Of a DNA stretch of 64,000 bases, positions 3,527 to 43,689 are shown piece by piece. The stretch is from Verrucomicrobiales bacterium (lineage in GTDB: Bacteria > Verrucomicrobiota > Verrucomicrobiia > Limisphaerales > CAIMTB01): contig JAEUHG010000139.1 in NCBI GenBank assembly GCA_016795425.1, positions 1 through 64,000 on the forward strand. The letters run 5' to 3'. Positions within the stretch are counted from its first letter, which is position 1. Each line of letters begins with the position of its first letter. Under the pieces are notes generated by a model. That model ran no database searches and was not told where the DNA came from. It saw only the letters and a program-made list of their open reading frames with translations. The translations under genes were made by a program, and so were the position numbers.

Positions 3527-4145
3527 GCCCGAGACGCTGGACAACCTCGTGCTCATGATCGAGATGGAGGGATTCCGCGCCATCCGTGCTTCGAATGGCC
3601 GCGACGGCATCGAGGTCGCCCTCCGCGAAGCCCCGGATCTCATCCTGTGTGATGTGTCCATGCCCGAGTTGGATGGCTACGGAGTCTTGGAGCATTTGCG
3701 CGCGGATCGCCGAACCGCCGGATGTCCTTTTATTTTCCTGACCGCGAAGGGGGACAAGAAAGACCTGCGAACGGGAATGAACCTTGGGGCGGACGATTAT
3801 CTGACCAAACCCGCCGGCGCCGAGGATTTGCTGGAGGCCATTCACGCTCGTCTCGAACGGCAGGAAGAAAAGGAGGAGGCCGCTTTGTCACGCGTGGAGG
3901 TGAGGCCCGACTTCGACTCCGCCAAACCTCTCGAGGCCCTGGGCCTGACGCCGCGCGAGGCCGAAGTCCTCCTTTGGCTGGCGCAGGGCAAAGCCAACGG
4001 TGACATCGCTGCCGTTCTTGGCTGCGCCGAGAACACCGTGAAGGTTCACACCGCTCGGATCTTCGAAAAATTAGGGTGCGAAAACCGGGGAGCAGCAGCG
4101 ATCCGGGCCCTCGAAATCCTCAGCAAACCTTCACGTCGCCGCTGA
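3498..4145 (+). CDS. Response regulator, REC plus LuxR-type HTH (NarL/FixJ family)
   Basis: A 215-residue cognate regulator of the overlapping kinase. The receiver domain starts MKTILVIEDEPE; the acidic pair is in IEDE, the phospho-acceptor is Asp52 in LILCDVSMPE, and the conserved Lys is in YLTKP. After a short Glu-rich linker, the HTH has the LuxR signature LTPREAEVL...NTVKVHTARIFEKLG. The ATG at 3498 lies inside the kinase gene. Family knowledge says such proteins bind short inverted repeats as dimers. Two dyads nearby (1081-1097 and 4245-4261) are possible sites, untested. Confidence 0.92.
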   Translation: MKTILVIEDEPETLDNLVLMIEMEGFRAIRASNGRDGIEVALREAPDLILCDVSMPELDGYGVLEHLRADRRTAGCPFIFLTAKGDKKDLRTGMNLGADDYLTKPAGAEDLLEAIHARLERQEEKEEAALSRVEVRPDFDSAKPLEALGLTPREAEVLLWLAQGKANGDIAAVLGCAENTVKVHTARIFEKLGCENRGAAAIRALEILSKPSRRR

Positions 4146-4244
4146 TAGCGACGGGCCACTTCAAGACAGCGGACCGGCTTTGAAGCCGTCCAGGCGCGGG
4201 CCTCGAGCCGATGTCGGCGCGCAGGCCCGTGCCTGGATGGGCGT

Positions 4245-4261
4245 AATACCGAAGCGGTATT
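4245..4261. promoter_or_regulatory. Candidate operator upstream of the ABC exporter
   Basis: A perfect 7-bp inverted repeat AATACCG-AAG-CGGTATT lies in the 268-bp gap between the response regulator and the exporter operon, about 150 bp before the permease start. It shares the core ATACCG with the leader of the PEP-CTERM gene (GATACCGC on the minus strand near 1070). It could be an operator or an mRNA hairpin. Confidence 0.35.
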
Positions 4262-4413
4262 CTCCGAACCGCTGGCGCCAGGATAGGAAAGGACCATGAA
4301 CTGCGTCCTGCGCCGAGCCATCGACGACCTGAGTGGAGAACCGACTCCTCCTCGGTTGCCCGCGGGATTCTCGACGATGTGACCGCTGGCGAACGCCTGA
4401 CCTAGCCCCATCC

Positions 4414-5553
4414 ATGAACGACCTAGCCCTCAAAATGCTGCTCGGAGACCGAGCCAAATACATCATGTTGGTGAGCGGACTGACCTTCGCGTCCCTGCTC
4501 ATGACGGAACAAGCCGCGATCTTCTGCGGCATCATGCAGTGGTCCGGATCCACGCTGGACAATGTCGGCGCGCCGATCTGGGTCGTCGATCCGATGGTCG
4601 AGCAGGTCAACGACACCGAGGCGCTGCGGGATACGGATCTCCACCGGGTACGGTCGGTCGAAGGCGTGGCCTGGGCGGCGCCTTTTTACCAGGGAGTTCT
4701 AAGGACCCGGATGCGGGATGGTTCGTTCAAGTTCGTGCAATTGGTGGGGATCGACGCGGCGACATTTGCCGGCGCCCCGGCGGAGGTGGTCGAGGGCGAC
4801 CTTAACCAATTGCGGCTTCCCAATACGGTGATCCTGGACGAGTACGGGGCGCAGAAGCTCAGTCGAGATCCGGCGAGGCCGATCGCGGTGGGCGATTCGT
4901 TCGAGATCAACGATCACGAAGCGCGGGTCGTGGGGATCTGCCGGACCCGAATGTCATTCTCGGGCAATCCGTATGTCTTCACGACGTACGACCAGGCGCT
5001 GCAATACGCTCCCGGGACGCGCAAGATGCTCTCCTGCGTACTGGTCGGTGCTGCCGAAGGGAAAGAGCCGGCTGCGGTGGCGCGTCGGATCGGGCAGGCA
5101 ACAGGACTGAAGGCCTACACCCGCGACGAGTTCTTTTGGCTGACCGTCTGGTGGTTCATTGAGAACACCGGCATCCCGGTGGCCTTCGGGGCCACAGTGC
5201 TATTGGGATTCGTGGTCGGCTTGGCGATCAGCAGTCAGACGTTTTATTCGTTCGTCCTCGAGAATCTGCGAAATCTGGGGGCACTGAAGGCCATGGGAGC
5301 GTCGGACCGCGTGCTCGCGCGGATGGTGATGCTTCAGACACTGACCGTGGGACTCATTGGCTACGGCTGCGGGGTCGGGTTGGCCTCCTTGTTTGGCATG
5401 GTGGTCCTGCGGAAGGGCATGCCGCCTTTCTTCCTCCCGTGGCAACTGCCGCTGCTGACCCTGGGCGCGGTGCTGTTCATCTGCTGGATGGCGGCATCGC
5501 TCGGCATACGAAAGATCCGCCAATTGGAACCGGCGGTGGTGTTTCGCGGCTAA
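4414..5553 (+). CDS. ABC transporter permease, FtsX/DevC-like
   Basis: A 379-residue inner-membrane permease. There is one N-terminal helix (about residues 17-40), a periplasmic domain of about 200 residues, then three helices from about 252 onward. This is the four-helix topology of the MacB/FtsX/DevC group. The conserved cytoplasmic stretch ENLRNLGALKAMGAS between helices 2 and 3 is the family coupling region. The ATG at 4414 is preferred because the upstream extension is Arg-rich and lacks family features. It is the first gene of a permease-ATPase-adaptor-outer-membrane-channel operon, so it most likely exports a molecule across both membranes. The substrate is unknown. Confidence 0.88.
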   Translation: MNDLALKMLLGDRAKYIMLVSGLTFASLLMTEQAAIFCGIMQWSGSTLDNVGAPIWVVDPMVEQVNDTEALRDTDLHRVRSVEGVAWAAPFYQGVLRTRMRDGSFKFVQLVGIDAATFAGAPAEVVEGDLNQLRLPNTVILDEYGAQKLSRDPARPIAVGDSFEINDHEARVVGICRTRMSFSGNPYVFTTYDQALQYAPGTRKMLSCVLVGAAEGKEPAAVARRIGQATGLKAYTRDEFFWLTVWWFIENTGIPVAFGATVLLGFVVGLAISSQTFYSFVLENLRNLGALKAMGASDRVLARMVMLQTLTVGLIGYGCGVGLASLFGMVVLRKGMPPFFLPWQLPLLTLGAVLFICWMAASLGIRKIRQLEPAVVFRG

Positions 5554-5609
5554 GACCTGCGTGACGGAAGCCGGCTGGTGAATTCAACCATCATTCGAAG
5601 GGAACATTT

Positions 5610-6323
5610 ATGAATCGCATCGCAGTCAGGACCTCGTGTGTGTGCAAGGGATTTGGTGAGGGCGAGAGCCGCACCGAGGTGCTCAAGGAGGTGAATTTTG
5701 AGGCCCAGATGGGCGAGTTGCTCATGCTGGTCGGGCCATCCGGATGCGGCAAAACCACGCTCCTAAGCGTAATTGCCGGGACGCTGGGAGTGGATCGCGG
5801 CGAAGTGGAGGTCTTCGATTCGCCGTTGCATCGACTCCAGACCAAGGAGGTCACCCAGTTTCGGGCCTCGAACATCGGATTCATTTTCCAGCAGTACAAC
5901 CTGATCCCCACCTTGAATTGCATCGAGAACGTCAGCGTTCCGCTGCGCATCCAGGGGGCGACCGCCGCTGACGCCGAGGACAAGGCCGCCGCGATGTTGG
6001 AGACCGTCGGACTCGGAAAGCGCATCCGGCACCGGCCGAACATGCTGTCCGGTGGCCAACAGCAGCGTGTCGCCATCGCGCGCGCGCTGGTTCATGACCC
6101 GAAGCTGATCATCTGCGACGAGCCCACGGCGGCCCTGGACAGCGAGAACGGCGCCCGAGTCATGGAGATCCTGCGAGGAGTCGCCGCCCGACCGGATCGC
6201 TGCGTGATCATTGTCACGCATGACAACCGCATTTTTCGGTATGCCGACCGTATGACGCACATGGAAGACGGTCGGATCCATCACACCGACAACCCTGAAA
6301 CCGGCGCCATGGAGCGCCAATAA
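5610..6323 (+). CDS. ABC transporter ATPase, LolD/MacB/DevA-like
   Basis: A 237-residue ATPase energising the adjacent permease. Walker A is GPSGCGKT (42-49), the Q-loop is FIFQQYNLIP, the signature is LSGGQQQRVAIARA, Walker B is LIICDEP, and the switch His is in IIVTHD. Length and motifs fit the small ATPases of the MacB/LolD/DevA class. It lies 56 bp after the permease and about 15 bp before the adaptor. Confidence 0.95.
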   Translation: MNRIAVRTSCVCKGFGEGESRTEVLKEVNFEAQMGELLMLVGPSGCGKTTLLSVIAGTLGVDRGEVEVFDSPLHRLQTKEVTQFRASNIGFIFQQYNLIPTLNCIENVSVPLRIQGATAADAEDKAAAMLETVGLGKRIRHRPNMLSGGQQQRVAIARALVHDPKLIICDEPTAALDSENGARVMEILRGVAARPDRCVIIVTHDNRIFRYADRMTHMEDGRIHHTDNPETGAMERQ

Positions 6324-6337
6324 GACCCTTGGAATCT

Positions 6338-7288
6338 ATGTTACACAGAATGACAACCTTCTATGTCGCCTTGGCGGGCACGGCAGGAACCGCCGCCCTG
6401 GTGGCGCATCTCAACGCCTCGTCGCCCATCAAACATCCGCCCATTGAACCACCGGCCAAACCCTACGAGCTCTGCGTCGCCGCCTCCGGAATTGTCGAGG
6501 CCATGAGCGAGAATGTCTCCATTGGCGTGCCCGAGGCGGGCCTGATCGAGACGGTCCACGTCGCGGTCTGGGATGAAGTGCGCGAAGGGCAGCCACTGTT
6601 CACCTTGGATGGCCGGGAACTGCGAGCGGAGATTGCAGTGCGCGAGGCCGAAGTGTTGGTGGCAGAGGCCACCTTGCGACGGATCCAGGATCAACTGTCG
6701 CGCCTCAAGGGTGTGACCGATCCGCGCGCGGTCAGTGCCGAGGAAGTTCGAACCAAAGAGCACGACGTCCAAGTCGCCGCTGCCCAGGTGAAGTCGGCCC
6801 AGGCCCAGCTCGAACAGCGCCGGGTGCGACTCGCCCGACTCACCGTCGCCGCCCCACGGCCCGGCACCATTTTGCAGGTGAACGTGAGGTCGGGCGAATT
6901 CGCGTCGGCCACGCCGAAGTCTCCCGCGATGGTGCTTGGGGACCTGGAGCACCTCCAGGTACGAGCGGACGTTGACGAACAGAACGCGACGCGGCTTCAG
7001 CCGGGGATGACGGCGACGGCGTTTCTCAAAGGAGTCACCACCGACCCGATCGCCTTGGACTTCGTGCGAATAGAGCCGTACGTGGTGCCCAAGGTGTCAT
7101 TGACCGGTGCCAGTACCGAGCGTGTGGACACGCGTGTGTTACAGGTCATCTATTCCTTCCGGCGTCCGGCGGATCGTGCGGTGTATGTCGGTCAACAGGT
7201 CGATCTCTTTGTGAAATCCGACCACGAGTCGGTCACCGAGGGGGATTCTCCCGTCAAACAACTGGCGCGGACGGAGGTGGTCCGATGA
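6338..7288 (+). CDS. Periplasmic adaptor (HlyD/DevB family) of the ABC exporter
   Basis: A 316-residue membrane-fusion protein. An N-terminal signal anchor (FYVALAGTAGTAALVAHL) is followed by a lipoyl half-motif (ASGIVEA...GVPEAGLIETVHV), a helical hairpin of two long Ala/Glu-rich coiled coils (about 90-165), the second lipoyl half, and a beta-barrel domain. It should bridge the permease to the TolC-like protein encoded next. Start choice is uncertain: ATG 6338 is used, with TTG 6329 and ATG 6350 as alternatives. The 3' end overlaps the next gene by ATGA. Confidence 0.88.
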   Translation: MLHRMTTFYVALAGTAGTAALVAHLNASSPIKHPPIEPPAKPYELCVAASGIVEAMSENVSIGVPEAGLIETVHVAVWDEVREGQPLFTLDGRELRAEIAVREAEVLVAEATLRRIQDQLSRLKGVTDPRAVSAEEVRTKEHDVQVAAAQVKSAQAQLEQRRVRLARLTVAAPRPGTILQVNVRSGEFASATPKSPAMVLGDLEHLQVRADVDEQNATRLQPGMTATAFLKGVTTDPIALDFVRIEPYVVPKVSLTGASTERVDTRVLQVIYSFRRPADRAVYVGQQVDLFVKSDHESVTEGDSPVKQLARTEVVR

Positions 7289-8679
7289 ACGCAACGACAC
7301 TCATCAGCGTGATTCTCACGGCACCCTTGCTTCTGTCGGGTTGTGCCGTCGGTCCAGATTACCACCGGCCAACCGTACCGCAGCAGGCGCGTTGGAAGGA
7401 GTCGGTGGCACCGGTGTCGAACACGGTGTTGCCGCCGTCGTGGTGGAGAAGTTTCGGTGATGCCGAGCTCGACGCGCTGGAGGACCAGGCCGTGGCGGCG
7501 AACCAAGACCTTCAGGTGGCCATGGCGCGCGTCCGGGAGGCGCGAGCCCTTCATCGCGCGAGTCGCGCCGACCTGTATCCGATGTTGTCGGGGAGCCAGG
7601 CGTATACCCGGAGCCGACTGAGCGAGAACCGGGCCAATACGCTGCCGGGCGACCTGGAGTCGGATGATTTCAGTGCCTCCTTCGATCTCAGCTACGAGCT
7701 CGATCTTTGGGGCCGGGTGCGGCGAAGCGCCGAGGCGTCGAAGGGTGATGCCGCATCGGTCGCCTGGGATCTGCAGACCGTGTTACTGACCCTGACGGCG
7801 GATGTGGCGCGGACTTATTGCGGGCTGCGTTCCCTGGACCAGGAACGGGAGGTGGTGGAGGCGACGATCGAGATCCGAGCGGACGAGGTCGGTCTGCAGA
7901 CCTCTCGCCACCGGGCGGGCCTCATCCATGAAGCGGATCTGATGCGTGCGCGGACCGAACATGCGGCGTCGCAGGCGGAATTGCAGGCCATCCTCCGAGT
8001 GCGGGCGCAGATGGAACATGCGCTCGCGGTGTTGTGCGGACAATCAGCGGGGGATTTCACGGTGGCCCGACGGCGCGCCGGGTTGTCGACTCCGGAGATT
8101 CCGGCAGGACTGCCGTCCACATTGCTTGAGCGGCGTCCCGACATTCTGGCGGCGGAGGAGCGCTTGAAGGCCGCTTCGGCGCGGATTGGCGTGGCGAAGG
8201 CGGCGTTTTTTCCCACGGTGAAAATCACCGGCACGGCGGGTTTGGCGAGTGCGGATCTGGGAACCCTCTTCAATTGGCCGAGCAAGGTGGGGTCGATAGG
8301 GCCGAGCATTCATGTGCCGATTTTCGAGGGCGGAAAGAACAGGGCCGATTTGAAAGGCGCGGAGGCGCGTTATGATCAAGCCCTCGCCGGGTATCGGGCC
8401 GCCATTCTGACGGCCTTTCGCGAGGTCGAGGATGCCCTGTCCGATCTCACCACCCTGTCCGCACAGAGCGAAGCGGTGGGGCGGGCCCTGCAATCGGCCC
8501 GCGACACGGCGTCCCTGGCGAACGAGCGATATGCGCAGGGCCTCTCGAGTTATCTCGACGTGGTGGATGCCCGGCGCGTTGCCCTCGACGCGGAGCGTCA
8601 GGAAGCGCAGTTGATCGGGCAACGGGCGGTATCGACGATCCTGCTGGCCAAGGCGATGGGAGGCGGTTGGGAAGACTAG
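7285..8679 (+). CDS. Outer-membrane efflux channel, TolC/NodT-type lipoprotein
   Basis: 464 residues. The signal peptide ends in the lipobox LLSGC, followed by AVGPDYHRP, the classic NodT-family N-terminus. Two OEP repeats follow, including DLWGRVRRSAEA and SYLDVVDARR, which are typical of the family. It is the outer-membrane exit duct of the exporter encoded upstream, and its ATGA start overlap with the adaptor gene suggests coupled translation. Its TAG stop overlaps the TAG of the opposite-strand phosphoesterase gene in a shared CTAG. Confidence 0.95.
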   Translation: MNATTLISVILTAPLLLSGCAVGPDYHRPTVPQQARWKESVAPVSNTVLPPSWWRSFGDAELDALEDQAVAANQDLQVAMARVREARALHRASRADLYPMLSGSQAYTRSRLSENRANTLPGDLESDDFSASFDLSYELDLWGRVRRSAEASKGDAASVAWDLQTVLLTLTADVARTYCGLRSLDQEREVVEATIEIRADEVGLQTSRHRAGLIHEADLMRARTEHAASQAELQAILRVRAQMEHALAVLCGQSAGDFTVARRRAGLSTPEIPAGLPSTLLERRPDILAAEERLKAASARIGVAKAAFFPTVKITGTAGLASADLGTLFNWPSKVGSIGPSIHVPIFEGGKNRADLKGAEARYDQALAGYRAAILTAFREVEDALSDLTTLSAQSEAVGRALQSARDTASLANERYAQGLSSYLDVVDARRVALDAERQEAQLIGQRAVSTILLAKAMGGGWED

Positions 8680-11282
8680 TCGTCGTCCTCCTCCTCCTCG
8701 AGTTCGGCGGGGCGCACGAAGCCGGCGCGAACCGGGGCGGGCATGGCGAATTCGGGACCACGCACGGACCGCCAGATGATCTCGTTCAATTGGAGATCAT
8801 CGGCGGCATCCTCTTTGGCGAAATCCATTTGGCCGGAAAGTTCGCTGCCCCACGCGCCGGCCAGGTTCCTTTGAGTGAGATCGACTCGGGCAGGTGCGGC
8901 GATGAAGGGAGAGGTGTCTCGGGACGGACTGAAACAGGAGTGCATCGGCATGGCGGCGGCGTCGAACTGGGTCATGGGCTTCAGGCCGAGAATGAGTTCC
9001 ATCGTGCGCAGCATGCTGCAGGTGGAGAACATCGAGGAATCGACCGTTCCGCGCCGGACGTAGGGGCTGATGACATAGGCGACGGTGCGGTGGGCATCGA
9101 TGTGGTCCGGTCCGTTCTGAGCGTCATCCTCCACCACGAAGACGGCGGTTTGCGGCCAGAACCTGGAGCGGGAGATTCCTTCGATGACGCGTCCGAGCGC
9201 CAGGTCGTTCTCCGCGACGAAGGCGGTCGGGGTGAGCTTGCCCGCGCTGGTTCCGGCGGTGTGGTCGTTGGGGAGGCGGACGATCTGGAGTCGAGGCATC
9301 TCACCTTCGCGTTCGAAGCGGGCGAGTTCGGCAAGAAACCGGTCGGCGCGAGCGAGGTCGCTGTAATCCATGTCGAAACTCCGGAACCAGGGATCGAAGT
9401 GCCCCTGGAGGCTTTTGACGAGGGTGGTGCAGGGCTCGTTGGTTTGGGCGCCGTTGTTGACGAACTCGCCGTAGCTTCGATAGGTGACACCGGCGGCCTT
9501 GGCGCGATCCCAGAGGTAACCGCCGGCGGGTTCGGCGATTTTGAACCGCCCTTCGCTCGGATAGGCGTACTTGCGGTCGCGATTGTGGCCGTAACTCATG
9601 GGCCACATCTTCTCCACGTAATCGGTGGCATAACCGCCGACAGTCCACTCATGGCCATCGGCGCTGACTTCGCTCTCCACATAGAAGTTGTCGAGCAACA
9701 CGAATTCGCGGGCCAGCTTGTGGTGATTGGGAGTGACCTCTTCCGGGAAGAGACAGAGGGTGGGATCCCCGCGGCCTTCGGGCATGTCGCCCAGCACCTG
9801 GTCATAGGTCCGGTTCTCCTTGATGATGTAGATGCAGTATCGCAGCGGCGTTGGTCCGCCGGCCACCTGAGGGATGGGGTGTCCGGGTTCCAGGGTTTTG
9901 GGAGGCTCCGGAGGGCGGCAACGATAGGCGCGATCGGTGTAGCCGCGGAGCGTCGATTCGAGGCGTTCGCGGTCCGCAGGCAGATCAATGATCGACAGGG
10001 AACCGACCATCAAACCACCGATATACTCGCGGACCGTGGCAGGGGCTTCCCGGCCGGGCTGCGGGCCATAGCGATTGGAGCGGGAGGCCAGTCCTTTGCC
10101 GTTCGCCACGAGCAGGTGACGCCCGTCGGGAGTCAGTCGGACCGACGTGGGATACCAGCCGACGGGAATGAATCCGAGGGCGCGACTGCGGCCTGGCTGA
10201 GCCACATCGAAGACGGCGATCGCATTGATGTTGGCATTGGCGACGAAGAGGAGGGTTTCGTCGGGACTCAGTGCGAGACTGTTGGGGGTGGATCCGGGAG
10301 GCGAGTTGGGCTGAAGTTCGGCGGTCAGGGTTTCAACCGTTTTCCCCAGGGTCGTGTCGATGACACTGACGGTATTGAGATTGGCATTGGCGACGAACAG
10401 ATGGCGGCCATCGCGCGCCAGAATCATTTCATTGGGGTGATCCTCCGCTGACCATCGCGCCACGCTCTGTCTTCGGTTGAGGTCGATGACCTCAACCGAA
10501 GCCTTGCCCCAGAGGCTGACGTACAGGCGTTGTTTGGCGGGGTCGATCACGCAGGCGTACGGGTAAGGCGCCTCATTGTTCAACGCCTCGAGCAGCGCCC
10601 GCGCGCGTTTGGTGATGGCTTCATCCTCGACGTCGCGCCACGGGTCGTTTTCGCCGGTGGGCGGCGTGGTGGTCCGGTCAGCCAGCCGATACTCGAAAGT
10701 GTTCGTGCCGGTGACGTCGGCGGAATCGAAATCCACCAGGCTCAACGAATGCCCGAGCAGATTGGCCACCCACAGCCCGCGGCCGTCCGGGGTGAGGGCC
10801 AGGCCCGCGGCGATGCCACGGGCCTTTGGATCGCGGAGTTGAAATGGGCGGGGGCCGGATAGCTGGCCGTCGGCAAAGTCGAATCGGTGAACCACCTCCT
10901 TGCCGGCGCCGCTGCAGTACAAGTGGCGTCCGTCGGCATCGAAGGCGAGTCCATAGAATGCCTCCTCGACGGTGACTCGCGAAACGACCTGGGCGGCTTT
11001 GACGTCGACGACGATGATCTCATGCGTCCCGTAGCCGCAGTGCAGGACCGCGGCGTGACGTCCCGAAGGGTGCACCGCGATGTTGACCGGGAAATCTCCG
11101 AGCCTGACCTGCTTGCCGACGGGGTCCAGGGACCATTGGTTCGGCAGGAGCACGGTTCCGTCCTTCCTGGCACCCGGCCAGCGGTCGTCGTCGGCATTCG
11201 CGGCGCTGGGTTGTGGGCGAGGGGAGGCGCAACCGCCCAGCATCACCAGAAGCGCCGCGAGGTATCGGGCCGGTAGATTCAT
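8676..11282 (-). CDS. Beta-propeller/phosphoesterase lipoprotein (YncE plus PF04185-like)
   Basis: 868 residues. The start at 11282 gives a lipoprotein signal (LLVMLGGC) with Cys near residue 17. Residues about 40-470 hold repeated blades of the YVTN/YncE type (for example NSLALSPDETLLFVAN and HLLVANGKGLASR). The C-terminal part begins at IYIIKENRTYDQVLGDMPEG, the entry motif of the PF04185 phosphoesterase/acid phosphatase family, and includes GHEWTVGGYATDYVEK and VFVVEDDAQNGPDHIDAHR, likely metal-ligand segments. It ends in an acidic EEEEDDD tail. This two-domain form is widespread in soil Acidobacteria and Verrucomicrobia; the substrate is unknown. The opposite-strand 594-codon open frame is a shadow. 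Confidence 0.9.
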   Translation of the reverse strand: MNLPARYLAALLVMLGGCASPRPQPSAANADDDRWPGARKDGTVLLPNQWSLDPVGKQVRLGDFPVNIAVHPSGRHAAVLHCGYGTHEIIVVDVKAAQVVSRVTVEEAFYGLAFDADGRHLYCSGAGKEVVHRFDFADGQLSGPRPFQLRDPKARGIAAGLALTPDGRGLWVANLLGHSLSLVDFDSADVTGTNTFEYRLADRTTTPPTGENDPWRDVEDEAITKRARALLEALNNEAPYPYACVIDPAKQRLYVSLWGKASVEVIDLNRRQSVARWSAEDHPNEMILARDGRHLFVANANLNTVSVIDTTLGKTVETLTAELQPNSPPGSTPNSLALSPDETLLFVANANINAIAVFDVAQPGRSRALGFIPVGWYPTSVRLTPDGRHLLVANGKGLASRSNRYGPQPGREAPATVREYIGGLMVGSLSIIDLPADRERLESTLRGYTDRAYRCRPPEPPKTLEPGHPIPQVAGGPTPLRYCIYIIKENRTYDQVLGDMPEGRGDPTLCLFPEEVTPNHHKLAREFVLLDNFYVESEVSADGHEWTVGGYATDYVEKMWPMSYGHNRDRKYAYPSEGRFKIAEPAGGYLWDRAKAAGVTYRSYGEFVNNGAQTNEPCTTLVKSLQGHFDPWFRSFDMDYSDLARADRFLAELARFEREGEMPRLQIVRLPNDHTAGTSAGKLTPTAFVAENDLALGRVIEGISRSRFWPQTAVFVVEDDAQNGPDHIDAHRTVAYVISPYVRRGTVDSSMFSTCSMLRTMELILGLKPMTQFDAAAMPMHSCFSPSRDTSPFIAAPARVDLTQRNLAGAWGSELSGQMDFAKEDAADDLQLNEIIWRSVRGPEFAMPAPVRAGFVRPAELEEEEDDD

Positions 11283-11378
11283 GCTGCGAGACGATGCGCC
11301 TGGAAGCTGGCGCAGAACAAGCGCCGGGGACACCGTTCCCCAAACGTAACTCGCAACACGCAGGCAGGTTTTCCGGTA

Positions 11379-11474
11379 TCAACCGAGACTGAAAACCAGG
11401 ACCAGAAAGCCCCAGGCGGAGAGCAGGGCAAGAGCGCAGCCACCGAATCGAAGCAGCCAAGGCAATTGAATCAT
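11379..11474 (-). CDS. Possible 31-residue single-helix membrane peptide
   Basis: This minus-strand frame starts ATG at 11474 and stops TGA at 11379. It reads MIQLPWLLRFGG followed by a continuous hydrophobic stretch (ALALLSAWGFLVLVF) to SLG. The composition is that of a one-pass membrane peptide. It lies 96 bp upstream of the phosphoesterase lipoprotein gene on the same strand. The upstream GGGG is only a weak ribosome site. No family recognised; it could be chance. Confidence 0.3.
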   Translation of the reverse strand: MIQLPWLLRFGGCALALLSAWGFLVLVFSLG

Positions 11475-11828
11475 GGCCCCAGCTTAGAGGGGGTGCATGG
11501 ACATTGGCGGTCCATGCGGGCGGGAATTTTCAGCGTGACCCCATTCGGGGCGCATCTCCGAGTTGTCGGGGCGATTTCCGTTGAAATAGCGGGAGAGGAC
11601 TCCCGCACTCCACGACGACCAGCGTTGGCCTGCCCCCGGGGTGCGGACTGGCGCGAAGCGTCTTGGACTGCGCGCAGTCCCCTGCCGCTTTCCCAGCACG
11701 GCGATTCCCGGCCGGAACGGTGGTGCCGCCCACTCGACCACTCGGAGATCCGCCCCCCCAGGGCGCACCGGCCGCCCGTGGAAAAACCTTATTGCCGCAG
11801 GCGCGCGGCGGCGGGACCATTGCTGAGC
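11475..11828. other. Intergenic stretch occupied mainly by a MITE-like repeat
   Basis: No convincing gene. The first 70 bp are unremarkable. 11548-11760 is the repeat described separately. The last 70 bp lead into the ligase-like gene. Open frames running through it on both strands come from the repeat and not from a coding region. Confidence 0.6.
11548..11760 (+). repeat. MITE-like dispersed repeat, copy 1
   Basis: About 213 bp, with near-identical sequence at 39413-39619 in the same orientation. The ends are terminal inverted repeats: GGGCGCATCTCCGAGTTGTC at the left and its complement with two changes at the right. Inside are perfect hairpins such as GCGGGAG-AGGA-CTCCCGC. There is no open frame shared with a transposase. 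The copy ends about 70 bp before the ATG at 11829. Flanking direct repeats are unclear here (CCCCA at both sides). Confidence 0.75.
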
Positions 11829-13376
11829 ATGTTTCGTGAACTTGGGCTCCCGGCATGGGTGGCCATTTATTTGGTGGCCATTCCATTGGCCATCATCGTC
11901 GGGGTCAGCGTTGCCGACCCCGCCTCGCCGACGAGTCTTCTCGTATTGGCCATGATCATCGGCGTGGGCCTGCTTCCGCTGGCCATGCGGTATTATCATG
12001 AGTCGCTCATTCTCTGCTGGAACTCCGCCCTGGTCGTCTTCTTCCTGCCTGGCCGGCCCACCATCGCCATGGTGCTGACCGGCATCACCCTTGGCATGGC
12101 GGTGGTCAAACGTGCCATGCTGCGCCAACCGATCTCCATTCCCGCACGCACCATCGCCGCCCCCCTGATCATCATTGGCCTCGTCGTCTTTGCCACTGCC
12201 CTCCTGACGGGCGGTATTGGCGGTCGCGCCCTTGGTGGTGACATGTGGGGTGCCCGACGCTACGCCGGCGTTTTTGTCGGTGTCTTCGGGTTCTTCGCGC
12301 TCAGCTCCATGCCCATTCCCCAGCACAAAGCCATGCTGCTGGCCGGATTGTTTACGCTCTCCGGAACCACCGCCGCCGCCAGCGATCTCGCCTACGCTCT
12401 CGACTGGAATTACCTGTTTCTTCTGTTCTCCACCGAACTGGCATTCCTCCAGGCCGCCGGCGATCAGATCGTCGGGTCGTTTGTCCGGTTCACCGGTGTC
12501 TGTTGGGCCGCCTGGGCCGTGTTCAACTTCATGCTCATGCGGTACGGCCTCCGCGGTCTCATCGATTTCAGCCGGCCCTGGCGCTTCCTTTTCGCCGCCG
12601 CGGCGCTCTTCGGAACTCTCATGGGCGGCTACCGCTCCTACATCATTCTGACCGCCCTGCTCTGCGGCAGCCTCTTCTTCCTGGAGGGCCTGCACCGAAC
12701 CAAGGTGCCTTTGATTGCTCTCGTCTGTCTTGCCCTCGGCTCCGCCCTGATCCTGCCCAATACCCGCTTGCTGCCCCTCGCCGTCCAACGCTCCCTGAGC
12801 GTGCTCCCGTTCCTGGACGTTGATCCGGTCGCCCGCCGCGACGCCCAGGGCACGCTCGATTGGCGTCTGGAGATGTGGAAGACCGTTCTGCCCGAAGTAC
12901 CCAGGTACCTGCTGCTCGGAAAGGGCTTCGCCTATAGCGGCACCGACTATTACCTCACCCAGGAAGCCGTGCGCCGCGGCATGATCTACAAGTCCTACGA
13001 GGACGCCATCATCAGCGGCAACTACCACAACGGCATCCTCACCGTCATCATTCCCTTCGGGATCTGGGGAACCGTCGCCTTCGGCTGGTTCTGCATCGCC
13101 TCCGTCTGGGCGTTGCTCCGAAATTACCGATACGGAGACCCCTCCCTTGCCGGCATCAACCGGTTCATGCTCGCCTCCTTCCTGACTCGTCTGGTCTTTT
13201 ACCTGACGGTCTATGGGCAGTTCGACCTCGACCTCCAGAGCTTCGTCGGCCTGGTCGGTATGAGCGTCGCGCTGAACGCCGGCATCCGTGGCCCGGTCCG
13301 CGCCGACCAACGCGCCTCGCGAAGCCGCCCATCGGCATCCAGCGAACCCGGTATGCCGCAACCCGCTACCGCCTGA
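11829..13376 (+). CDS. O-antigen ligase/polymerase-like membrane protein
   Basis: 515 residues with 11-13 predicted hydrophobic helices and a large loop before the last ones. That loop holds WRLEMWKTVLPEVPRYLLLGKGFAY and later NYHNGILTVIIPFGIWG, which match the conserved Arg and His-Asn region of the WaaL/Wzy O-antigen ligase superfamily. The ATG at 11829 is chosen because everything upstream is repeat sequence. The C-terminal 40 residues are Ser/Arg-rich and cytoplasmic. With the glycosyltransferases that follow it probably builds or exports a surface polysaccharide. Ligase versus polymerase cannot be separated by sequence. Confidence 0.75.
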   Translation: MFRELGLPAWVAIYLVAIPLAIIVGVSVADPASPTSLLVLAMIIGVGLLPLAMRYYHESLILCWNSALVVFFLPGRPTIAMVLTGITLGMAVVKRAMLRQPISIPARTIAAPLIIIGLVVFATALLTGGIGGRALGGDMWGARRYAGVFVGVFGFFALSSMPIPQHKAMLLAGLFTLSGTTAAASDLAYALDWNYLFLLFSTELAFLQAAGDQIVGSFVRFTGVCWAAWAVFNFMLMRYGLRGLIDFSRPWRFLFAAAALFGTLMGGYRSYIILTALLCGSLFFLEGLHRTKVPLIALVCLALGSALILPNTRLLPLAVQRSLSVLPFLDVDPVARRDAQGTLDWRLEMWKTVLPEVPRYLLLGKGFAYSGTDYYLTQEAVRRGMIYKSYEDAIISGNYHNGILTVIIPFGIWGTVAFGWFCIASVWALLRNYRYGDPSLAGINRFMLASFLTRLVFYLTVYGQFDLDLQSFVGLVGMSVALNAGIRGPVRADQRASRSRPSASSEPGMPQPATA

Positions 13377-37602: not shown

Positions 37603-39330
37603 TCACGCCTTTCGATGGCTTGCTGCCGGTTTGGATGCGGGTGGTTGCGACAGAATCTCCCCAGCGCGATGCAACGCCGCGTCGAGGTTTTCACAGAAAT
37701 TCTCGGCACCCCATTTTTCAACCAAACCCGCCTGGCTCATGGCCATCAGAGGCTGGGTGTGCGCCCCGCTGATGAGGATTTTCGTCCCGTAGCTTTCCCA
37801 TTTCTCCTGAATCTCCTCCAACGCATTCAACCCCGTCGCGTCAATGGCCAGAACATCCTGCATGCGCAGGATCAATACCCGCGGGCGCTCGCTCAACCGC
37901 TTCAGTCCGGTCTCCAGCTTGTCGGCCGCGCCGAACAGGAAGGCCCCCACCAATCGAAACGTCACGACCCCCTTCGGGATTTCCTTACCTTCCATGCGGT
38001 TCTGCGCGGAATCAGAAGTCTCCCGCGTGTCCGCCGCGATCAACTGAGTGGTCGAGGCGATGCGATGGATGAACATCGCCGCGGCCAGCAACAGGCCAAC
38101 CTCGACCGCGAAGGTCAGGTCGAAGAGCACGGTCAACGCGAAGGTGAGCAGGAACACCAGGGCGTCGCCACGCGGCCAGCGAGTCACACGCCGGAAGTTG
38201 TGCCATTCCCCCATGCGCAACGCCACGTTGACCAGCACGCCACCGAGCGTGGCCAACGGAATGTTCGTGGCCAGCGGCGCGGCCACCAGCACGATCCCCA
38301 GGAGCACCACGGCGTGAATCAGCCCGGCCACTGGCGTCCTGGCACCGTTGCGCACATTGGTCGCCGTCCGAGCAATGGCGCCCGTCGCCGGGATGCCGCC
38401 CAGCAATCCCGAACCGATGTTCGCGATGCCCTGGGCCACCAACTCCTGGTTTGAATCATGGCGATCGTCGATCATGCCGTCCGCCACCACCGCGCACAGC
38501 AGCGATTCGATCGCCGCCAACATGGCGATGGTGAAGGCGGGACGAAACAGCGCCGGCAACTCCATCCAATTGATCGACGGCAAGGTCAGCGGCGGAAGGG
38601 ATTGCGGGATGGCGCCGAAAGTGGAGCCCACGGTGGCCACGCCGAATCGCGTGTCGAGATGTCCGATCACCACCGCCAACGTGCCGAAAATCATCGCGGC
38701 GATGCTGCCTGGCAGGAACCGCTGCCAACGTGCCGGCCAGCCGAAAATGATGACCATCGAGACCGCCGCTAACCCGATGCTCAAAACGTTGATGGAGCCC
38801 AGGTGCTTCGCCAGGAAGATCATCTTCAGTACGAACTCGGCCGGCACCTTCTCACCCTCCGCCAACCCAATCCCCAGCAAATCCTTGAACTGCGAACTCA
38901 AAATGATGAGGGCGATGCCCGCCGTAAATCCACCGGTCACCGGGTAGGGGATGTATTTGATCAACCCGCCCAGCTTCGCCCAACCCATCGCCAACAACAT
39001 CAATCCCGCCAGGATCGTGCAGAGGGTCAGGTTCGCCATCCCATACTGGGCGTAAACGCCATACACGATCCCGATAAACGCCCCCGTCGGTCCGCCAATA
39101 CACACCCGCGTCCCACCCAACAGCGAAATCAGGAAGCCGGCGACGATCGCGGTGTAAAGCCCGGCACGCGGATCCGCCACCGAGGAGATTCCGAAGGCCA
39201 GCGCCAGGGGCAGCGCCACCACTCCGACGGTTAGGCCTGCGTTGAGATCCCGAAAAAACTCCTCCCGCGTGTACCCCTTCAACGTATCGAGAAGCTTCGG
39301 CCGAAAAGAGAAAGTAAGTGACTGCACCAC
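37603..39330 (-). CDS. SulP-family anion permease with STAS domain
   Basis: 575 residues from GTG 39330. The start region DLNAGLTVGVVALPLALAFGISSVADPRAGLYTAIVAGF is the SulP signature, followed by 12-14 helices and a C-terminal STAS domain (VLILRMQDVLAIDATGLNALEEI). Substrate may be sulfate or bicarbonate. The open frame reaches 39411, but residues before the GTG show no family features. Divergent from the octaheme cytochrome gene; the shared 413-bp region contains a MITE-like insertion. Confidence 0.9.
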   Translation of the reverse strand: MVQSLTFSFRPKLLDTLKGYTREEFFRDLNAGLTVGVVALPLALAFGISSVADPRAGLYTAIVAGFLISLLGGTRVCIGGPTGAFIGIVYGVYAQYGMANLTLCTILAGLMLLAMGWAKLGGLIKYIPYPVTGGFTAGIALIILSSQFKDLLGIGLAEGEKVPAEFVLKMIFLAKHLGSINVLSIGLAAVSMVIIFGWPARWQRFLPGSIAAMIFGTLAVVIGHLDTRFGVATVGSTFGAIPQSLPPLTLPSINWMELPALFRPAFTIAMLAAIESLLCAVVADGMIDDRHDSNQELVAQGIANIGSGLLGGIPATGAIARTATNVRNGARTPVAGLIHAVVLLGIVLVAAPLATNIPLATLGGVLVNVALRMGEWHNFRRVTRWPRGDALVFLLTFALTVLFDLTFAVEVGLLLAAAMFIHRIASTTQLIAADTRETSDSAQNRMEGKEIPKGVVTFRLVGAFLFGAADKLETGLKRLSERPRVLILRMQDVLAIDATGLNALEEIQEKWESYGTKILISGAHTQPLMAMSQAGLVEKWGAENFCENLDAALHRAGEILSQPPASKPAASHRKA

Positions 39331-39743
39331 TGCCCCCCGATTCCGGGATACCCCCCGCCTCCTGTCACGCGCAAACTTCCCGGCCCCAACTCTGGGCATC
39401 CCGTCGGGCATTGGGCGATCTCCAAGTTGTCGGGGCGATTTCCGTTAAAATGGCGGGAGAGGACTCCCGCACTCCACGACGACCCGCGTTGGCCTGGCCC
39501 CAGGGTGCGGACTGGCGCGAAGCGTCGTGGACTGCGGCAGTCCCCTGCCGCTTTCCCAGCACGGCAATTCCCGGCCGGAACGGTGGTGCCGCCAACTCGA
39601 CAACTCGGAGATGCGCCCGTCGGGCGTTTGCCTTCAGGAAATCGCATTGCCTGTTGACCAGACGCCAGATAGAACCGCCCGGCAATCTCCTGGAAGCCGT
39701 GCCACCGTCGGGGTCGCACGCATCCAGTGGCAGATCGCCTCGC
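39331..39743. other. Divergent intergenic region containing a MITE-like repeat
   Basis: No gene seen. 39331-39400 precedes the permease gene. 39413-39619 is the repeat. 39630-39743 should hold the promoter of the octaheme cytochrome/porin operon; no convincing -35/-10 pair is visible there. Confidence 0.55.
39413..39619 (+). repeat. MITE-like dispersed repeat, copy 2
   Basis: About 207 bp, near-identical in most of its length to 11548-11760. The right end reads CGACAACTCGGAGATGCGCC, the complement of the left end of copy 1, so the element has terminal inverted repeats of about 20 bp. GTCGGGCATT before it and GTCGGGCGTT after it look like a 10-bp target duplication with one change. Internal hairpins include GCGGCAG-TCCC-CTGCCGC. 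Confidence 0.75.
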
Positions 39744-40538
39744 ATGCCCGGTTCCCGTTTCTCAAAAAGGTGGTTCGCTGCGGCCGCAGGATTCCTGCTC
39801 GGCGGCTTGGCTCTCGTCATCAGCTCCTGCAGCAGCGTGCAACGGACCGTCGTGGTACCGCCCCATATTCCCGGAGCGACCTTCGTGGGCAACCAGGCCT
39901 GTTACGAGTGTCACACCAATTACTCCCACGCCTTCCAGGGCAGTGTTCATTTCCGGGTGCAGGCCGATATCGAGAAACTGCCTGGCGGCACGAGCTGCGA
40001 AAGTTGCCATGGCCCCGGCAGCCGCCATGCCGAGGCGCCGCGCGAACGGGCCCAATTCATCATCAATCCGCGCAAGGATCCGAAAGCCTGCTTCGATTGC
40101 CATCAGGATGTGCATCTCCAGTTCCGCCTGCCCTCTCACCATCCGGTCACTGAGGGTATTCTGAATTGCGTCCAATGCCATGACCCGCATGGCCGCGAGA
40201 TCTTCAAGCCCGCCGGCGGCCTCGGCATGGCCCGCCTCAACGAGCAATGTTCCTCCTGCCATAAGGAACAGGCGCGGACGTACGTCTTCGAACATGAAGC
40301 GATGCGGGAAGGCTGCGTCAGCTGCCACCAGCCCCACGGCTCCATCAACTCCAAGCTTCTGACCGAGCGCGACGCCAACCTCTGCCTGAAATGCCACGCC
40401 CAGGTCCAATCCGGCGCCGGCGAGGTCTGGATTGGCAAAACCGATCATCGCTCGCTCCTCTCCCTCGGCAGTTGCTGGTCCGCCGGCTGCCATACCGCCG
40501 TCCATGGCTCCAACTTCCAACCCAAGCTGCTCTACTGA
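39744..40538 (+). CDS. Octaheme c-type cytochrome lipoprotein
   Basis: 264 residues. The signal peptide ends with lipobox VISSC (Cys29), so a lipid-anchored periplasmic or outer-membrane protein is predicted. Seven CxxCH heme sites start at Cys53, 85, 116, 142, 169, 191 and 214, and an eighth unusual CX4CH (CWSAGCH) starts at Cys244. ESCHGPGSRH and CVSCHQPHGS resemble the MtrA/DmsE and NrfB-like multiheme families, but MtrA has ten hemes and no lipid anchor. ATG 39744 places the signal peptide correctly; all upstream sequence in the open frame is the repeat. The porin-cytochrome fusion gene starts 18 bp downstream. Together they are a candidate electron conduit through the outer membrane (inference). 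Confidence 0.85.
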   Translation: MPGSRFSKRWFAAAAGFLLGGLALVISSCSSVQRTVVVPPHIPGATFVGNQACYECHTNYSHAFQGSVHFRVQADIEKLPGGTSCESCHGPGSRHAEAPRERAQFIINPRKDPKACFDCHQDVHLQFRLPSHHPVTEGILNCVQCHDPHGREIFKPAGGLGMARLNEQCSSCHKEQARTYVFEHEAMREGCVSCHQPHGSINSKLLTERDANLCLKCHAQVQSGAGEVWIGKTDHRSLLSLGSCWSAGCHTAVHGSNFQPKLLY

Positions 40539-40556
40539 GCCCCAACCCACGGTCGC

Positions 40557-42959
40557 GTGAGCGCTTTTCCCTCTTCCCCACCTAAGACCGGTTTCACCGT
40601 CCCGCTGACCTTGGCGGCCTGTCTCGCCGCTTGTCTCCGGGCCGCCGCGGCCGACCCAGTCCTCGCCACGGTCGACGTTTCCAAACTGCCGCCACCGGCC
40701 ACGCGACCGGTCGCCTTCTCCGCCGATATCCAACCCATTCTCGAAAAGGCGTGCCTCCGTTGCCACGGCGCAGAAAAGCCCAAAGCCGGGTATCGTCTTG
40801 ATAATCGCGAGGACGCCATCCGAGGCGGCGACCAGGGAGCCGCCATCGTTCCCGGCGACAGTGCCAAAAGCCCGTTGATTCATTTCGTGGCGAGATTGGT
40901 CGAGGACATGGAGATGCCCCCGACCGGAAAGGGCGAACCCCTGACAGCCGACGAAATCGGGATCCTTCGAGCCTGGATCGATCAAGGGGCCGCGTGGTCC
41001 GAAGATTCCGCACAACCGCGCCTTTCCTATTCATTCACCCCCGCCGCCCAATACATCGCCGTGGACGGCAATGAAGCCCGGTTCCGCGAACACTATTGGA
41101 TGCGCGACGGGTGGGGGGACGGCCTTTCAGAGTTCTCCCTCAAGTACGACATGGATCCGCGGACCCGCGTGGAGATCGAGGGCAGGACGTACACCGGCAC
41201 GGATCAGCACCGGTTCAACGCGCGGGTCGAACGCGATGACCTGGGCTGGGTTCGCGTCGGATATCAGGAGTTTCACCGGTACCACGATGACACCGGCGGC
41301 TACTATAAGCCCTACGGGGACGCCGCGCCGCGGCTCGATGATGACCTCGTGCTTCGACATCGCCACGCCACCATCGAACTCGGCCTGGCCCTCCCGGATC
41401 TGCCGGTCTTCCAGATCGCGTACGACCTCCATCTTCGCGACGGCACCGAAGCCACTCTCAATTGGGGAGCCCTGGATCGCGGGGGAGTTCGACGCGCGAT
41501 TTACCCCGGTCGCCAACGCGTCGACGAAACCACCCACCTGGTGACGTTGGATATCCGTTACGACTGGGATGGACTGCTGATCTCCGACCAGGCGCAGTTC
41601 GAGTGGCACGAGCAAAACAACCTCAAGACCAACTACGACACCCAGGGCGGTGGTTTCGATTTTGCCAATCGGATCAACGACCGGCAGGACTACTGGCGCG
41701 GGGCCAACGTCCTGCGCCTGGAACGCCAACTCCGCGACTGGCTCTACGTCTCCGGCGGGTACCTCTATTCCCAACTCAAGGACATCGGAGGGTTCAGTGT
41801 CGAAAGCTTCGCCCCCAACGACCCGACCGTCCCGCCCTCGCTCGATCTCAGCACCGATGACCTGACGCTTCGTCGGCGGTCCCACACCGCCAATGCCAAC
41901 GTCATGCTCGGCCCTTGGGAGCAACTCCACTTTTATGCGGGACTTCAGGCGGATTGGTCGCGACAGGAAGGATTCGCCGGCGGCCAAGCCTACGGCACCC
42001 GCACCGCCTACGATGCCAATATCGACCGTGCCGCCACGGACGAGAACTTTGGGCTCCGGTATTCGGGAATCCCCTACACCATCCTCTTCGCCGAAACCCG
42101 GTTTCAGCAGGAATCCTACTCACATTTCGAGGAAGGACTTACAGATACGACTCAAGCATTCCTGAGGGATACCGATGCTGACGGAGACCTGCAGGATTTT
42201 GAGGTCGGTTTCACGGTCTCCCCGTGGAAACAAGCCAGTCTGCAGGCCAAATACCGACGGCGCGACCGCTCCAACCATTACGATCACCTCCGGGACGTGG
42301 ATCTGTTCTCCAGTGGAAATGGTTATCCGGCCTTCATCCGGTCGCGCGACACGCTCACCGACGAGTTCGACACGCGCTGGGTGTTTCGCCCCTGCAAATG
42401 GCTCAAAGCCACACTGCGCTACAGCCTCGCCGCCACCGATTTCGAGACCGAAACCGACTCGGTCCAGGACTTCGCCCAAGTCCCTCCCACTTCCTTCTCC
42501 GGTGGACGCCTTCTCGCCGGCCAATATGACGCCCATGTCGTCGGAGCGGGATTTGTCCTCACTCCCTGGAGCCGGTTGCACTTCTCCACGGCGCTCACTT
42601 GGACCACCAGCCGATCGTTGTCCGGCAACAATAATGAGGCAGAAGTGGCGCCCTACCAGGGTGAGGTCTGGAACCTCCTCAACTCCGCCACTTTCGTGGT
42701 CGATGAGAAAACCGACTTCATCGCCACCTACCTTTTTTCCGACGCCGATTACGGTCAGGATAATGCGGCCTCCAGCCTGCCGTTGGGGATTCAGTTCACC
42801 CGACACGCCGCCACTGCCGGCATCACGCGAAAGATGAAACGGGGACAGTCGCTGCGCGTGGAGTACGGCTTTTTCACCTACCACGAACCTTCGCTCGGCG
42901 GCGCCGCGGACTACACAGCCCACGGCTTGTTCACGAGCTACCGCATCCCCCTTCCGTAA
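40557..42959 (+). CDS. Cytochrome c domain fused to a large outer-membrane beta-barrel (MtrB/PioB-like?)
   Basis: 800 residues, GTG start. Signal peptide (VPLTLAACLAACLRAAA). Residues about 50-148 are a planctomycete-type cytochrome c domain (PSCyt1-like): FSADIQPILEKACLRCHGAEK with heme Cys66-Cys69-His70, VPGDSAKSPLI, and MEMPPTG supplying a likely Met ligand. From about 150 to the end the sequence alternates polar and hydrophobic residues with many aromatic-ended strands (e.g. FSLKYDMDPRTRVEIEGRTY, WLYVSGGYLYSQL, LHFSTALTWTTS) and short turns, as in a barrel of more than 20 strands. Length and context fit MtrB/PioB porins, which sheath a multiheme cytochrome, but the N-terminal CxxC of MtrB is absent and the fused heme domain is not part of that family as I know it. 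Barrel assignment is by pattern, not profile search. Confidence 0.75.
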   Translation: MSAFPSSPPKTGFTVPLTLAACLAACLRAAAADPVLATVDVSKLPPPATRPVAFSADIQPILEKACLRCHGAEKPKAGYRLDNREDAIRGGDQGAAIVPGDSAKSPLIHFVARLVEDMEMPPTGKGEPLTADEIGILRAWIDQGAAWSEDSAQPRLSYSFTPAAQYIAVDGNEARFREHYWMRDGWGDGLSEFSLKYDMDPRTRVEIEGRTYTGTDQHRFNARVERDDLGWVRVGYQEFHRYHDDTGGYYKPYGDAAPRLDDDLVLRHRHATIELGLALPDLPVFQIAYDLHLRDGTEATLNWGALDRGGVRRAIYPGRQRVDETTHLVTLDIRYDWDGLLISDQAQFEWHEQNNLKTNYDTQGGGFDFANRINDRQDYWRGANVLRLERQLRDWLYVSGGYLYSQLKDIGGFSVESFAPNDPTVPPSLDLSTDDLTLRRRSHTANANVMLGPWEQLHFYAGLQADWSRQEGFAGGQAYGTRTAYDANIDRAATDENFGLRYSGIPYTILFAETRFQQESYSHFEEGLTDTTQAFLRDTDADGDLQDFEVGFTVSPWKQASLQAKYRRRDRSNHYDHLRDVDLFSSGNGYPAFIRSRDTLTDEFDTRWVFRPCKWLKATLRYSLAATDFETETDSVQDFAQVPPTSFSGGRLLAGQYDAHVVGAGFVLTPWSRLHFSTALTWTTSRSLSGNNNEAEVAPYQGEVWNLLNSATFVVDEKTDFIATYLFSDADYGQDNAASSLPLGIQFTRHAATAGITRKMKRGQSLRVEYGFFTYHEPSLGGAADYTAHGLFTSYRIPLP

Positions 42960-43014: not shown

Positions 43015-43689
43015 GTGAAAACCCTGGTCATCGCCACGAGAAACGCCCACAAGGCGCGTGAAATCCAAACCTTCCTGGGCAACCGATTTCGCTACCTCAC
43101 CCTTCGGGAACTTTCCGGGGCTCCGCCTATCGACGAATCAGGCACCACCTTCGCCGAGAATGCCAAGTTGAAGAGCGAAGGCGTGGCCTGCTGGCTCCTG
43201 CTGAAGCGCGGCACGGATCGCACCCAAGCGTGGTGGGTCCTCGCTGACGATTCGGGCCTCGAAGTCGACGCCCTCCATGGCGACCCCGGTGTCCGGTCCG
43301 CCCGATTCGCCGCCACCGATGTCCAAGTCTCGGCCAATGCGCCCGATGCGGCTAACAATGAGAAACTCCTCCGCCTGCTCGCCGACACTCCGGAGGAACA
43401 GCGCACCGCCCGCTTTCGTTGTGCCTTGTCCCTGACGGAAATCGGCTCGGGCCTGCCCAGCCAGTTGTTCGAGGGTGTGTGCGACGGACGCATCCTCGCC
43501 GGCCCGCGCGGAACCAACGGCTTCGGGTATGATCCGCTCTTCGTGGCCGACGGCTTCTCGACCACCTTCGCCGAGATGTCGTCGGCGGAAAAATCGGTAA
43601 TCAGCCACCGCGCCAAAGCGCTGGACGGACTGCGTTGCTGGGCGGATCGCCGATTTGGCCTCGCCTCCCATGCCCGGGTCACCCATTAG
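43015..43689 (+). CDS. rdgB: XTP/dITP diphosphatase (non-canonical purine NTP pyrophosphatase)
   Basis: 224 residues, GTG start. Hydrolyses ITP/XTP and dITP to monophosphates, keeping damaged purines out of nucleic acids. Motifs: [57 protein letters not shown] and [12 protein letters not shown], all standard for RdgB/HAM1. Followed by aroC in the same direction. Confidence 0.93.

Follow-up and report, generated by a model that had tools for sequence, protein, structure and literature searches.

Known trans-outer-membrane wires exchange electrons with separate periplasmic cytochromes. The locus described here raises the question of whether such a wire can carry a relay of its own and, if so, in which direction the electrons would run. 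It lies in the window, by which we mean the whole stretch of 64,000 nucleotides that was analysed (contig JAEUHG010000139.1 of a Verrucomicrobiales bacterium, assembly GCA_016795425.1), and consists of two plus-strand genes (Table 1). Gene A encodes an octaheme c-type cytochrome that is a predicted lipoprotein; gene B codes for an MtrB-like outer-membrane barrel with a PSCyt1 monoheme domain fused to its N-terminal end. A preliminary description, made from the sequence alone, had proposed a possible new type of electron conduit. Our reading, to which we assign a probability of roughly 77%, is that the pair forms an outer-membrane conduit of the MtrAB type in which the periplasmic relay is built into the barrel protein. 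This reading is based on homology, fold and conservation, on the pairing of the genes, on a fusion that arose once and on the lack of neighbouring cytochrome genes.

Structure of the encoded proteins

Gene B was modelled with AlphaFold2, using an alignment of 61 homologues as input. The model is confident, with a mean predicted local distance difference test score (pLDDT) of 89.3 and a predicted template modelling score of 0.81. DSSP assignment of the model locates 26 strands after the helical PSCyt1 domain, the first at residues 155–171 and the last at 786–799. The barrel of about 650 residues suggested in the preliminary description is thus found (residues 155–799), and not some other fold. 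Its best match in the PDB is chain 6r2q_B (Foldseek E 6.5e-14), which is MtrB of the Shewanella baltica Mtr complex; chain 6r2q_A is MtrA. VIA-align superimposes 561 residues on 6r2q_B with Z 22.2 and a root-mean-square deviation (rmsd) of 3.6; the next chain gives Z 16.4 and an rmsd of about 9. TonB-type receptors appear further down the list of fold matches, and Pfam finds no plug domain in the barrel. The published MtrB structure has 26 strands, the first four of them short, and the loop that joins strand 1 to strand 2 contains a small cap helix (PMC7198977). The model agrees with this structure in both its short first strands and its strand 1–2 helix.

The best matches of the octaheme are of the MtrA/DmsE type. 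A profile of 61 octahemes matches MtrA (6r2q_A) with E 5.9e-35; the last six hemes of the profile fall on hemes 5–10 of MtrA. Among NCBIfam models the best match of gene A is NF041028 (165 bits, below the cut-off). The DmsE profile, TIGR03508, aligns to gene A in two nearly abutting pieces (1–58 and 114–256) with positions 59–113 unmatched, which suggests that it is two internal hemes short. On the best reading, gene A encodes a wire of the MtrA type that would lack two hemes in its N-terminal half; as heme motifs repeat, the identity of the missing pair is less certain than the count. Assignment of gene A to the DmsE-family decahemes was rejected, since it has eight hemes rather than ten and scores 150.1 bits against a TIGR03508 cut-off of 192.2.

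Every heme-motif Cys and His is invariant among the 61 octahemes. Eight His outside the motifs (69, 95, 133, 149, 184, 198, 235 and 254) are also invariant, which is the number needed by eight bis-His hemes. The eight motifs first noted within the 264 residues are confirmed as seven CXXCH and one CX4CH. The latter, the eighth, is supported as a heme site by its retention as CX4CH in almost all homologues and its replacement by plain CXXCH in one (locus L065, see below). By homology with heme 10 of MtrA, this motif would mark the outward-facing end of the wire.

The lipobox Cys of gene A, also recognised in the preliminary description, follows a hydrophobic signal, as expected of a lipoprotein. 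This residue, Cys29, is invariant in 61 of 61 homologues, with Ser or Ala at position −1. In E. coli lipoproteins the residue at position +2 sets inner versus outer membrane. Across 90 aligned rows, which take in the unfused relatives, Ser prevails at this position and Asp occurs once, so that under the E. coli rule gene A is predicted to reside in the outer membrane. The predicted anchor had been considered distinctive; it is not, as the unfused relatives have it too. The longest open reading frame (ORF) for gene A begins at 39318. We place the start at 39744, since every one of the 90 aligned rows of homologues has a Cys 23–25 residues ahead of its first heme.

The N-terminal part of gene B matches PSCyt1 (Pfam PF07635) at residues 66–124 with 66.6 bits against a cut-off of 22 (E 3e-18), and has a CXXCH and a downstream MPP motif. 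All 61 homologues match the profile as well. C66, C69, H70 and M120 are invariant in the 61 sequences and the monoheme is probably His/Met ligated; the one-heme PSCyt1-like domain first proposed from these residues is confirmed. The Pfam model of PccH also matches 8 of the 61 fused proteins, weakly. Barrels with an even number of strands have both chain ends on the periplasmic side. The even strand number of gene B and the short linker to strand 1 would thus place PSCyt1 at the periplasmic mouth. A free-standing single-domain PSCyt1 protein is encoded elsewhere in the window's own genome (L003:1462-1848, in G000:C228), where it adjoins a thymidylate-synthase-like gene. It has the VDVSKLPP lead in common with the gene B domain and is 54% identical to it over the matched stretch. 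The fused domain consequently looks like a recruited soluble carrier, with a free protein of the L003 type as its likely ancestor. We note that two fused porins (L146:972-4064 and L139:10738-13482) have two N-terminal CXXCH motifs, and that two PSCyt1 domains are present in L146.

Occurrence and origin of the fusion

The octaheme alignment was scanned against 84,980 species genomes, which gave 443 relatives, and the best 80 of the 443 were used. Four of these loci end within 361 bp of the octaheme and were left out. In all 76 testable loci the next gene after the octaheme encodes the PSCyt1-barrel fusion; the survey for conserved synteny proposed in the preliminary description thus finds the pair kept throughout. 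Most records with the fused pair are named Verrucomicrobia, Pedosphaera, Limisphaera or Limisphaerales. Several sequences from genomes of the window's order are identical to loci in these records, which assigns the order to this group. Some records of metagenome-assembled genomes (L077, L078, L081, L084, L085, L088, L094 and L135) are titled Akkermansia muciniphila or Klebsiella pneumoniae. These titles are probably wrong: the isolate labels look environmental and the sequences group with Limisphaerales.

A barrel search in 320 genomes of the window's order located the barrel in 184, and three congeners have the same fused protein at 64–66% barrel identity. Of 376 genomes sampled from the phylum, 22 have the barrel. 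All 20 barrel-bearing genomes of other orders in this sample are unfused, with no PSCyt1 fusion among them, and in 19 of the 20 a CX4CH octaheme lies just upstream. The octaheme with an unfused barrel is therefore found across the phylum, whereas the fused pair is, in the genomes sampled, confined to a single verrucomicrobial order, Pedosphaera/Limisphaerales. A barrel tree of 60 rows requires one gain and one loss of the fusion. The loss is at L065 (L065:548-3474), which is without PSCyt1 and has the plain CXXCH as its eighth heme motif. Both kinds of pair, fused and unfused (the latter on contig C128), are carried by the window's own genome. At L095:1178-3700, in a metagenome-assembled genome, the fused porin is broken by frameshifts or stops, through either assembly error or decay.

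Neighbouring genes

The surroundings of fused and unfused pairs were compared. The fused set comprised the window and 50 further loci, with median flanks of 9.9 and 7.6 kb; the unfused set comprised 20 loci, including the pair on C128 and excluding L209, which is fused and apparently duplicates the contig of L144. Another nearby ORF with at least three CXXCH motifs is present at 20/20 unfused and 0/51 fused loci (Fisher p ~1e-17), and a NapC-like hexaheme at 11/20 and 0/51 respectively (Fisher p ~1e-7), both values being uncorrected for the relatedness of the loci. The presence of the PSCyt1 domain goes with the absence of cytochrome neighbours. The preliminary description had remarked that no outer-face cytochrome gene is adjacent, and this holds for the window pair and the 50 homologous pairs. 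It had also supposed that a heme domain attached to the porin would mean a different entry route for electrons. The missing electron-supply cytochromes support this idea, in that the fused domain goes with a different electron-entry arrangement. The unfused paralogue of the same genome (L161, G000:C128:62000-78000, minus strand 2544-10009) is followed on its own strand by two further genes, one for a NapC/NrfH-like cytochrome and the other for a protein with nine hemes.

Another possible conduit cluster was observed at L160 (G000:C4:36000-50000, minus strand 4414-12181). It comprises a 749-residue barrel-like protein, a small multiheme lipoprotein, two NHL-repeat proteins, a large multiheme protein with an MtrC-like domain match and one further multiheme protein. 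In nine homologous loci (L112, L113, L115, L119, L125, L130, L132, L134 and L145) an SCO1/CusF gene abuts the octaheme or lies just upstream, usually with a cupredoxin-Big_7 gene before it, the whole within 2.5 kb of the octaheme. These genes may mark a copper-protein redox partner in one subclade.

In the window itself, exactly 18 bp separate the gene A stop from the gene B start, as first described. Upstream of the pair is a SulP-type transporter gene on the opposite strand (37603–39411, minus) and downstream an RdgB/HAM1-like gene (43015–43689, plus). RdgB-like genes are also found downstream of the pair at L083, L079 and L127. There is no general synteny beyond genes A and B among the homologous loci, and the SulP-type and RdgB-like neighbours form no common operon with them.

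Table 1. Positions in the window of genes A and B and of the features assigned to them
Feature	Coordinates	Strand	Description and basis
Gene A	39744..40538	+	ATG start, 264 residues; MtrA/DmsE-related octaheme c-type cytochrome, predicted lipoprotein (ORF, profile matches)
Lipoprotein signal peptide	39744..39830	+	Lipobox ISSC at 39819-39830; Cys29 predicted to be lipidated
Heme motif 1, CYECH	39900..39914	+	Sequence
Heme motif 2, CESCH	39996..40010	+	Sequence
Heme motif 3, CFDCH	40089..40103	+	Aligns with MtrA heme 5
Heme motif 4, CVQCH	40167..40181	+	Sequence
Heme motif 5, CSSCH	40248..40262	+	Sequence
Heme motif 6, CVSCH	40314..40328	+	Sequence
Heme motif 7, CLKCH	40383..40397	+	Sequence
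Heme motif 8, CWSAGCH (CX4CH)	40473..40493	+	Kept in fused and unfused clades; CXXCH in L065
Gene B	40557..42959	+	GTG start, 800 residues; PSCyt1 monoheme domain fused to 26-strand MtrB-like outer-membrane barrel (ORF, model, fold matches)
Probable signal peptide of gene B, residues 1-32	40557..40652	+	Hydrophobic N-terminus ending AAA-A, read from sequence
PSCyt1 domain, residues 54-148	40716..41000	+	PF07635 at residues 66-124
Heme motif CLRCH (C66, C69, H70)	40752..40766	+	Invariant in 61 homologues
Met120, likely distal heme ligand	40914..40916	+	Invariant in 61 homologues; proposed ligand
26-strand barrel, residues 155-799	41019..42953	+	DSSP of model; as in MtrB, a helix (173-180) separates strands 1 and 2

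Proposed mechanism and direction of electron flow

We propose that the octaheme lipoprotein, as a shortened MtrA, would fill the 26-strand MtrB-like barrel and serve as the electrical link between periplasm and cell surface. Its lipid would tie the N-terminal, inner end to the outer membrane's inner leaflet and its CX4CH heme would face outward. PSCyt1, joined to the start of strand 1 at the periplasmic mouth, would relay electrons between the inner end of the wire and a soluble partner. It would thereby replace the separate periplasmic or inner-membrane cytochromes seen beside the unfused relatives. Heme A1 of MtrA extends some 20 Å into the periplasm (PMC7198977); with two hemes fewer, the inner end of the octaheme would plausibly lie nearer to the barrel mouth, where PSCyt1 begins. 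In this scheme we infer the assembly of the complex, its heme contacts, the lipidation and the membrane it serves, the side of PSCyt1 and the direction of electron flow.

Several points weigh against the hard-wired MtrAB-type conduit. The AlphaFold model of the octaheme is poor (pLDDT 53, the hemes being absent from the model) and was set aside. By sequence, gene B itself has no Pfam match to MtrB_PioB (PF11854) and no match in the PDB, so the link to MtrB comes from the fold and from relatives. Of the two profile comparisons suggested in the preliminary description, that with PSCyt1 was positive for gene B. PF11854 lends the link some slender support through relatives: it matches 5 of the 61 fused homologues (E up to 0.01, best 6.4e-07), one of which, L139, scores 28.8 bits against a cut-off of 23. 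The side assigned to PSCyt1 is read from barrel topology. Finally, ligand type is a weak argument for direction, since the potential of PccH, a monoheme that acts as a relay in electron uptake, is unusually low at −24 mV (PMC4717640).

We lean, by a narrow margin, to inward flow. The monoheme is probably His/Met ligated, and the monoheme relays PccH and MtoD serve electron-uptake or iron-oxidation systems. No quinol dehydrogenase is linked to the pair, and it resembles PioAB and MtoAB in having no linked outer cytochrome. The window's genome also has four heme-copper oxidase subunit I genes, indicating that oxygen is an available acceptor.

The same conduit may run outward, with PSCyt1 accepting electrons from soluble periplasmic cytochromes and the octaheme delivering them to humic substances or metal oxides; we regard this as a serious alternative, if the less probable one. 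He et al. link the verrucomicrobial pairing of porin and multiheme cytochrome to humic-rich anoxic water (PMC5615132), and the unfused paralogue of the window's genome is accompanied by a NapC/NrfH-like cytochrome, which is typical of quinol-driven outward flow. The fused pairs, however, are without a quinol-dehydrogenase or periplasmic multiheme neighbour (0/51). A probable His/Met heme at the entry also makes transfer to low-potential bis-His hemes less likely, and the oxidases would offer oxygen as acceptor. Both directions might be accommodated if Limisphaerales-type Verrucomicrobia had two oppositely wired conduits built on one octaheme-barrel core, the unfused running outward from a NapC-like quinol dehydrogenase and the fused running inward. 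This is speculative and we think it rather unlikely. If true, the monoheme of the fused pair would tie to the oxygen-respiring chain for uptake from Fe(II) or reduced humics, and the gain of a single fused domain would have reversed the current in a trans-membrane wire.

Alternatively, PSCyt1 could be the main redox centre, a plug in a Cyc2-like barrel that oxidises a small soluble donor, with the octaheme acting as a periplasmic collector outside the barrel. In Cyc2 an N-terminal monoheme is indeed fused to a barrel, the domain being on the periplasmic side as a plug (PMC8406198). We consider this improbable: the barrel has 26 strands against 16 in Cyc2, its fold match is MtrB, and unfused barrels adjoin the octaheme without any PSCyt1, so that the octaheme appears to be the original partner of the barrel. 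Less probable still is a transport or secretion channel whose cytochromes carry out a redox step on cargo such as copper or a polymer. The SCO1/CusF genes directly upstream in nine loci, most with a preceding cupredoxin gene, and the TonB-type receptors lower in the fold list would fit such a role. MtrB nonetheless ranks well above all transporters in the fold matches, Pfam finds no plug domain, and the copper genes are confined to a subclade and absent from the window. Chance juxtaposition or an assembly artefact can be dismissed. The assembly that holds the window is a draft of 301 contigs, but both genes recur in this order in every testable locus and the fused protein is present in three congeners.

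Comparison with known systems

With its 26-strand barrel of MtrB topology (Z 22.2) and MtrA-homologous multiheme partner (E 5.9e-35), the pair resembles MtrAB, MtoAB and PioAB, down to the helix between strands 1 and 2; like PioAB and MtoAB it has no outer-face cytochrome. It differs in having eight hemes rather than ten, a CX4CH motif at the last heme, a predicted lipid anchor and the fused monoheme domain. The likening to MtrAB and PioAB in the preliminary description thus stands as far as the barrel and the octaheme are concerned. Its suggestion of a possible new type does not, as both proteins are of the MtrAB lineage and the octaheme-plus-porin core has already been reported in Verrucomicrobia (PMC5615132).

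In that 2017 report (mSphere, PMC5615132) He et al. described porins of Verrucomicrobia that adjoin an eight-heme cytochrome and regarded them as novel; they stated that homologues of the Shewanella and Geobacter systems are absent, and proposed outward transfer to humics. Genes A and B conform to the arrangement reported there, in which a porin of 20 or more membrane strands is encoded next to a cytochrome with eight hemes, and the unfused relatives across the phylum, compared by description, fit it too. No PSCyt1 was reported in those porins; PSCyt proteins were treated separately and predicted to be periplasmic or cytoplasmic, not outer-membrane. Here the porin bears PSCyt1, its fold is MtrB-like and the octaheme is related to MtrA. 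Among the open-access papers searched, PSCyt1 occurs together with a porin or beta-barrel only in PMC5615132, and none describes a PSCyt1-barrel fusion.

In the Geobacter pair GSU2203/GSU2204 (NF041028/NF041027), the first family is the best NCBIfam match of the octaheme and GSU2204 is described as an MtrB/PioB-family barrel with a CXXCH motif. Scores against both families are nevertheless far under the cut-offs, and the Geobacter cytochrome is a decaheme. PccH and MtoD are likewise small monoheme relays that serve outer-membrane conduits. They are separate soluble proteins, whereas the monoheme of gene B is tethered to the barrel.

Cyc2 has been called unique in fusing cytochrome and porin (Keffer et al., PMC8406198). 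It shares with gene B an N-terminal monoheme domain and an outer-membrane barrel in one chain, but its porin has 16 strands and no multiheme wire. Gene B cannot itself be Cyc2, given its 26 strands and the octaheme partner in 76/76 loci; it is a second cytochrome-porin fusion architecture, on an MtrB-like barrel with a multiheme wire.

What is new is the PSCyt1 fusion, its limitation to one order and its link to missing cytochrome partners. The pair ties the picture of He et al. to the MtrAB lineage, by fold and by profile, and adds a fused variant to it. Its presence further points to electron exchange with the environment in a large order of soil and lake bacteria, most of them uncultured. 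As a relay built into the barrel coincides with absent cytochrome neighbours, what sets the partner and direction of such a wire becomes testable by means of one domain. Whereas the 2017 report found no Mtr homologues, our results indicate that the octaheme-linked porins of Verrucomicrobia are MtrB-like.

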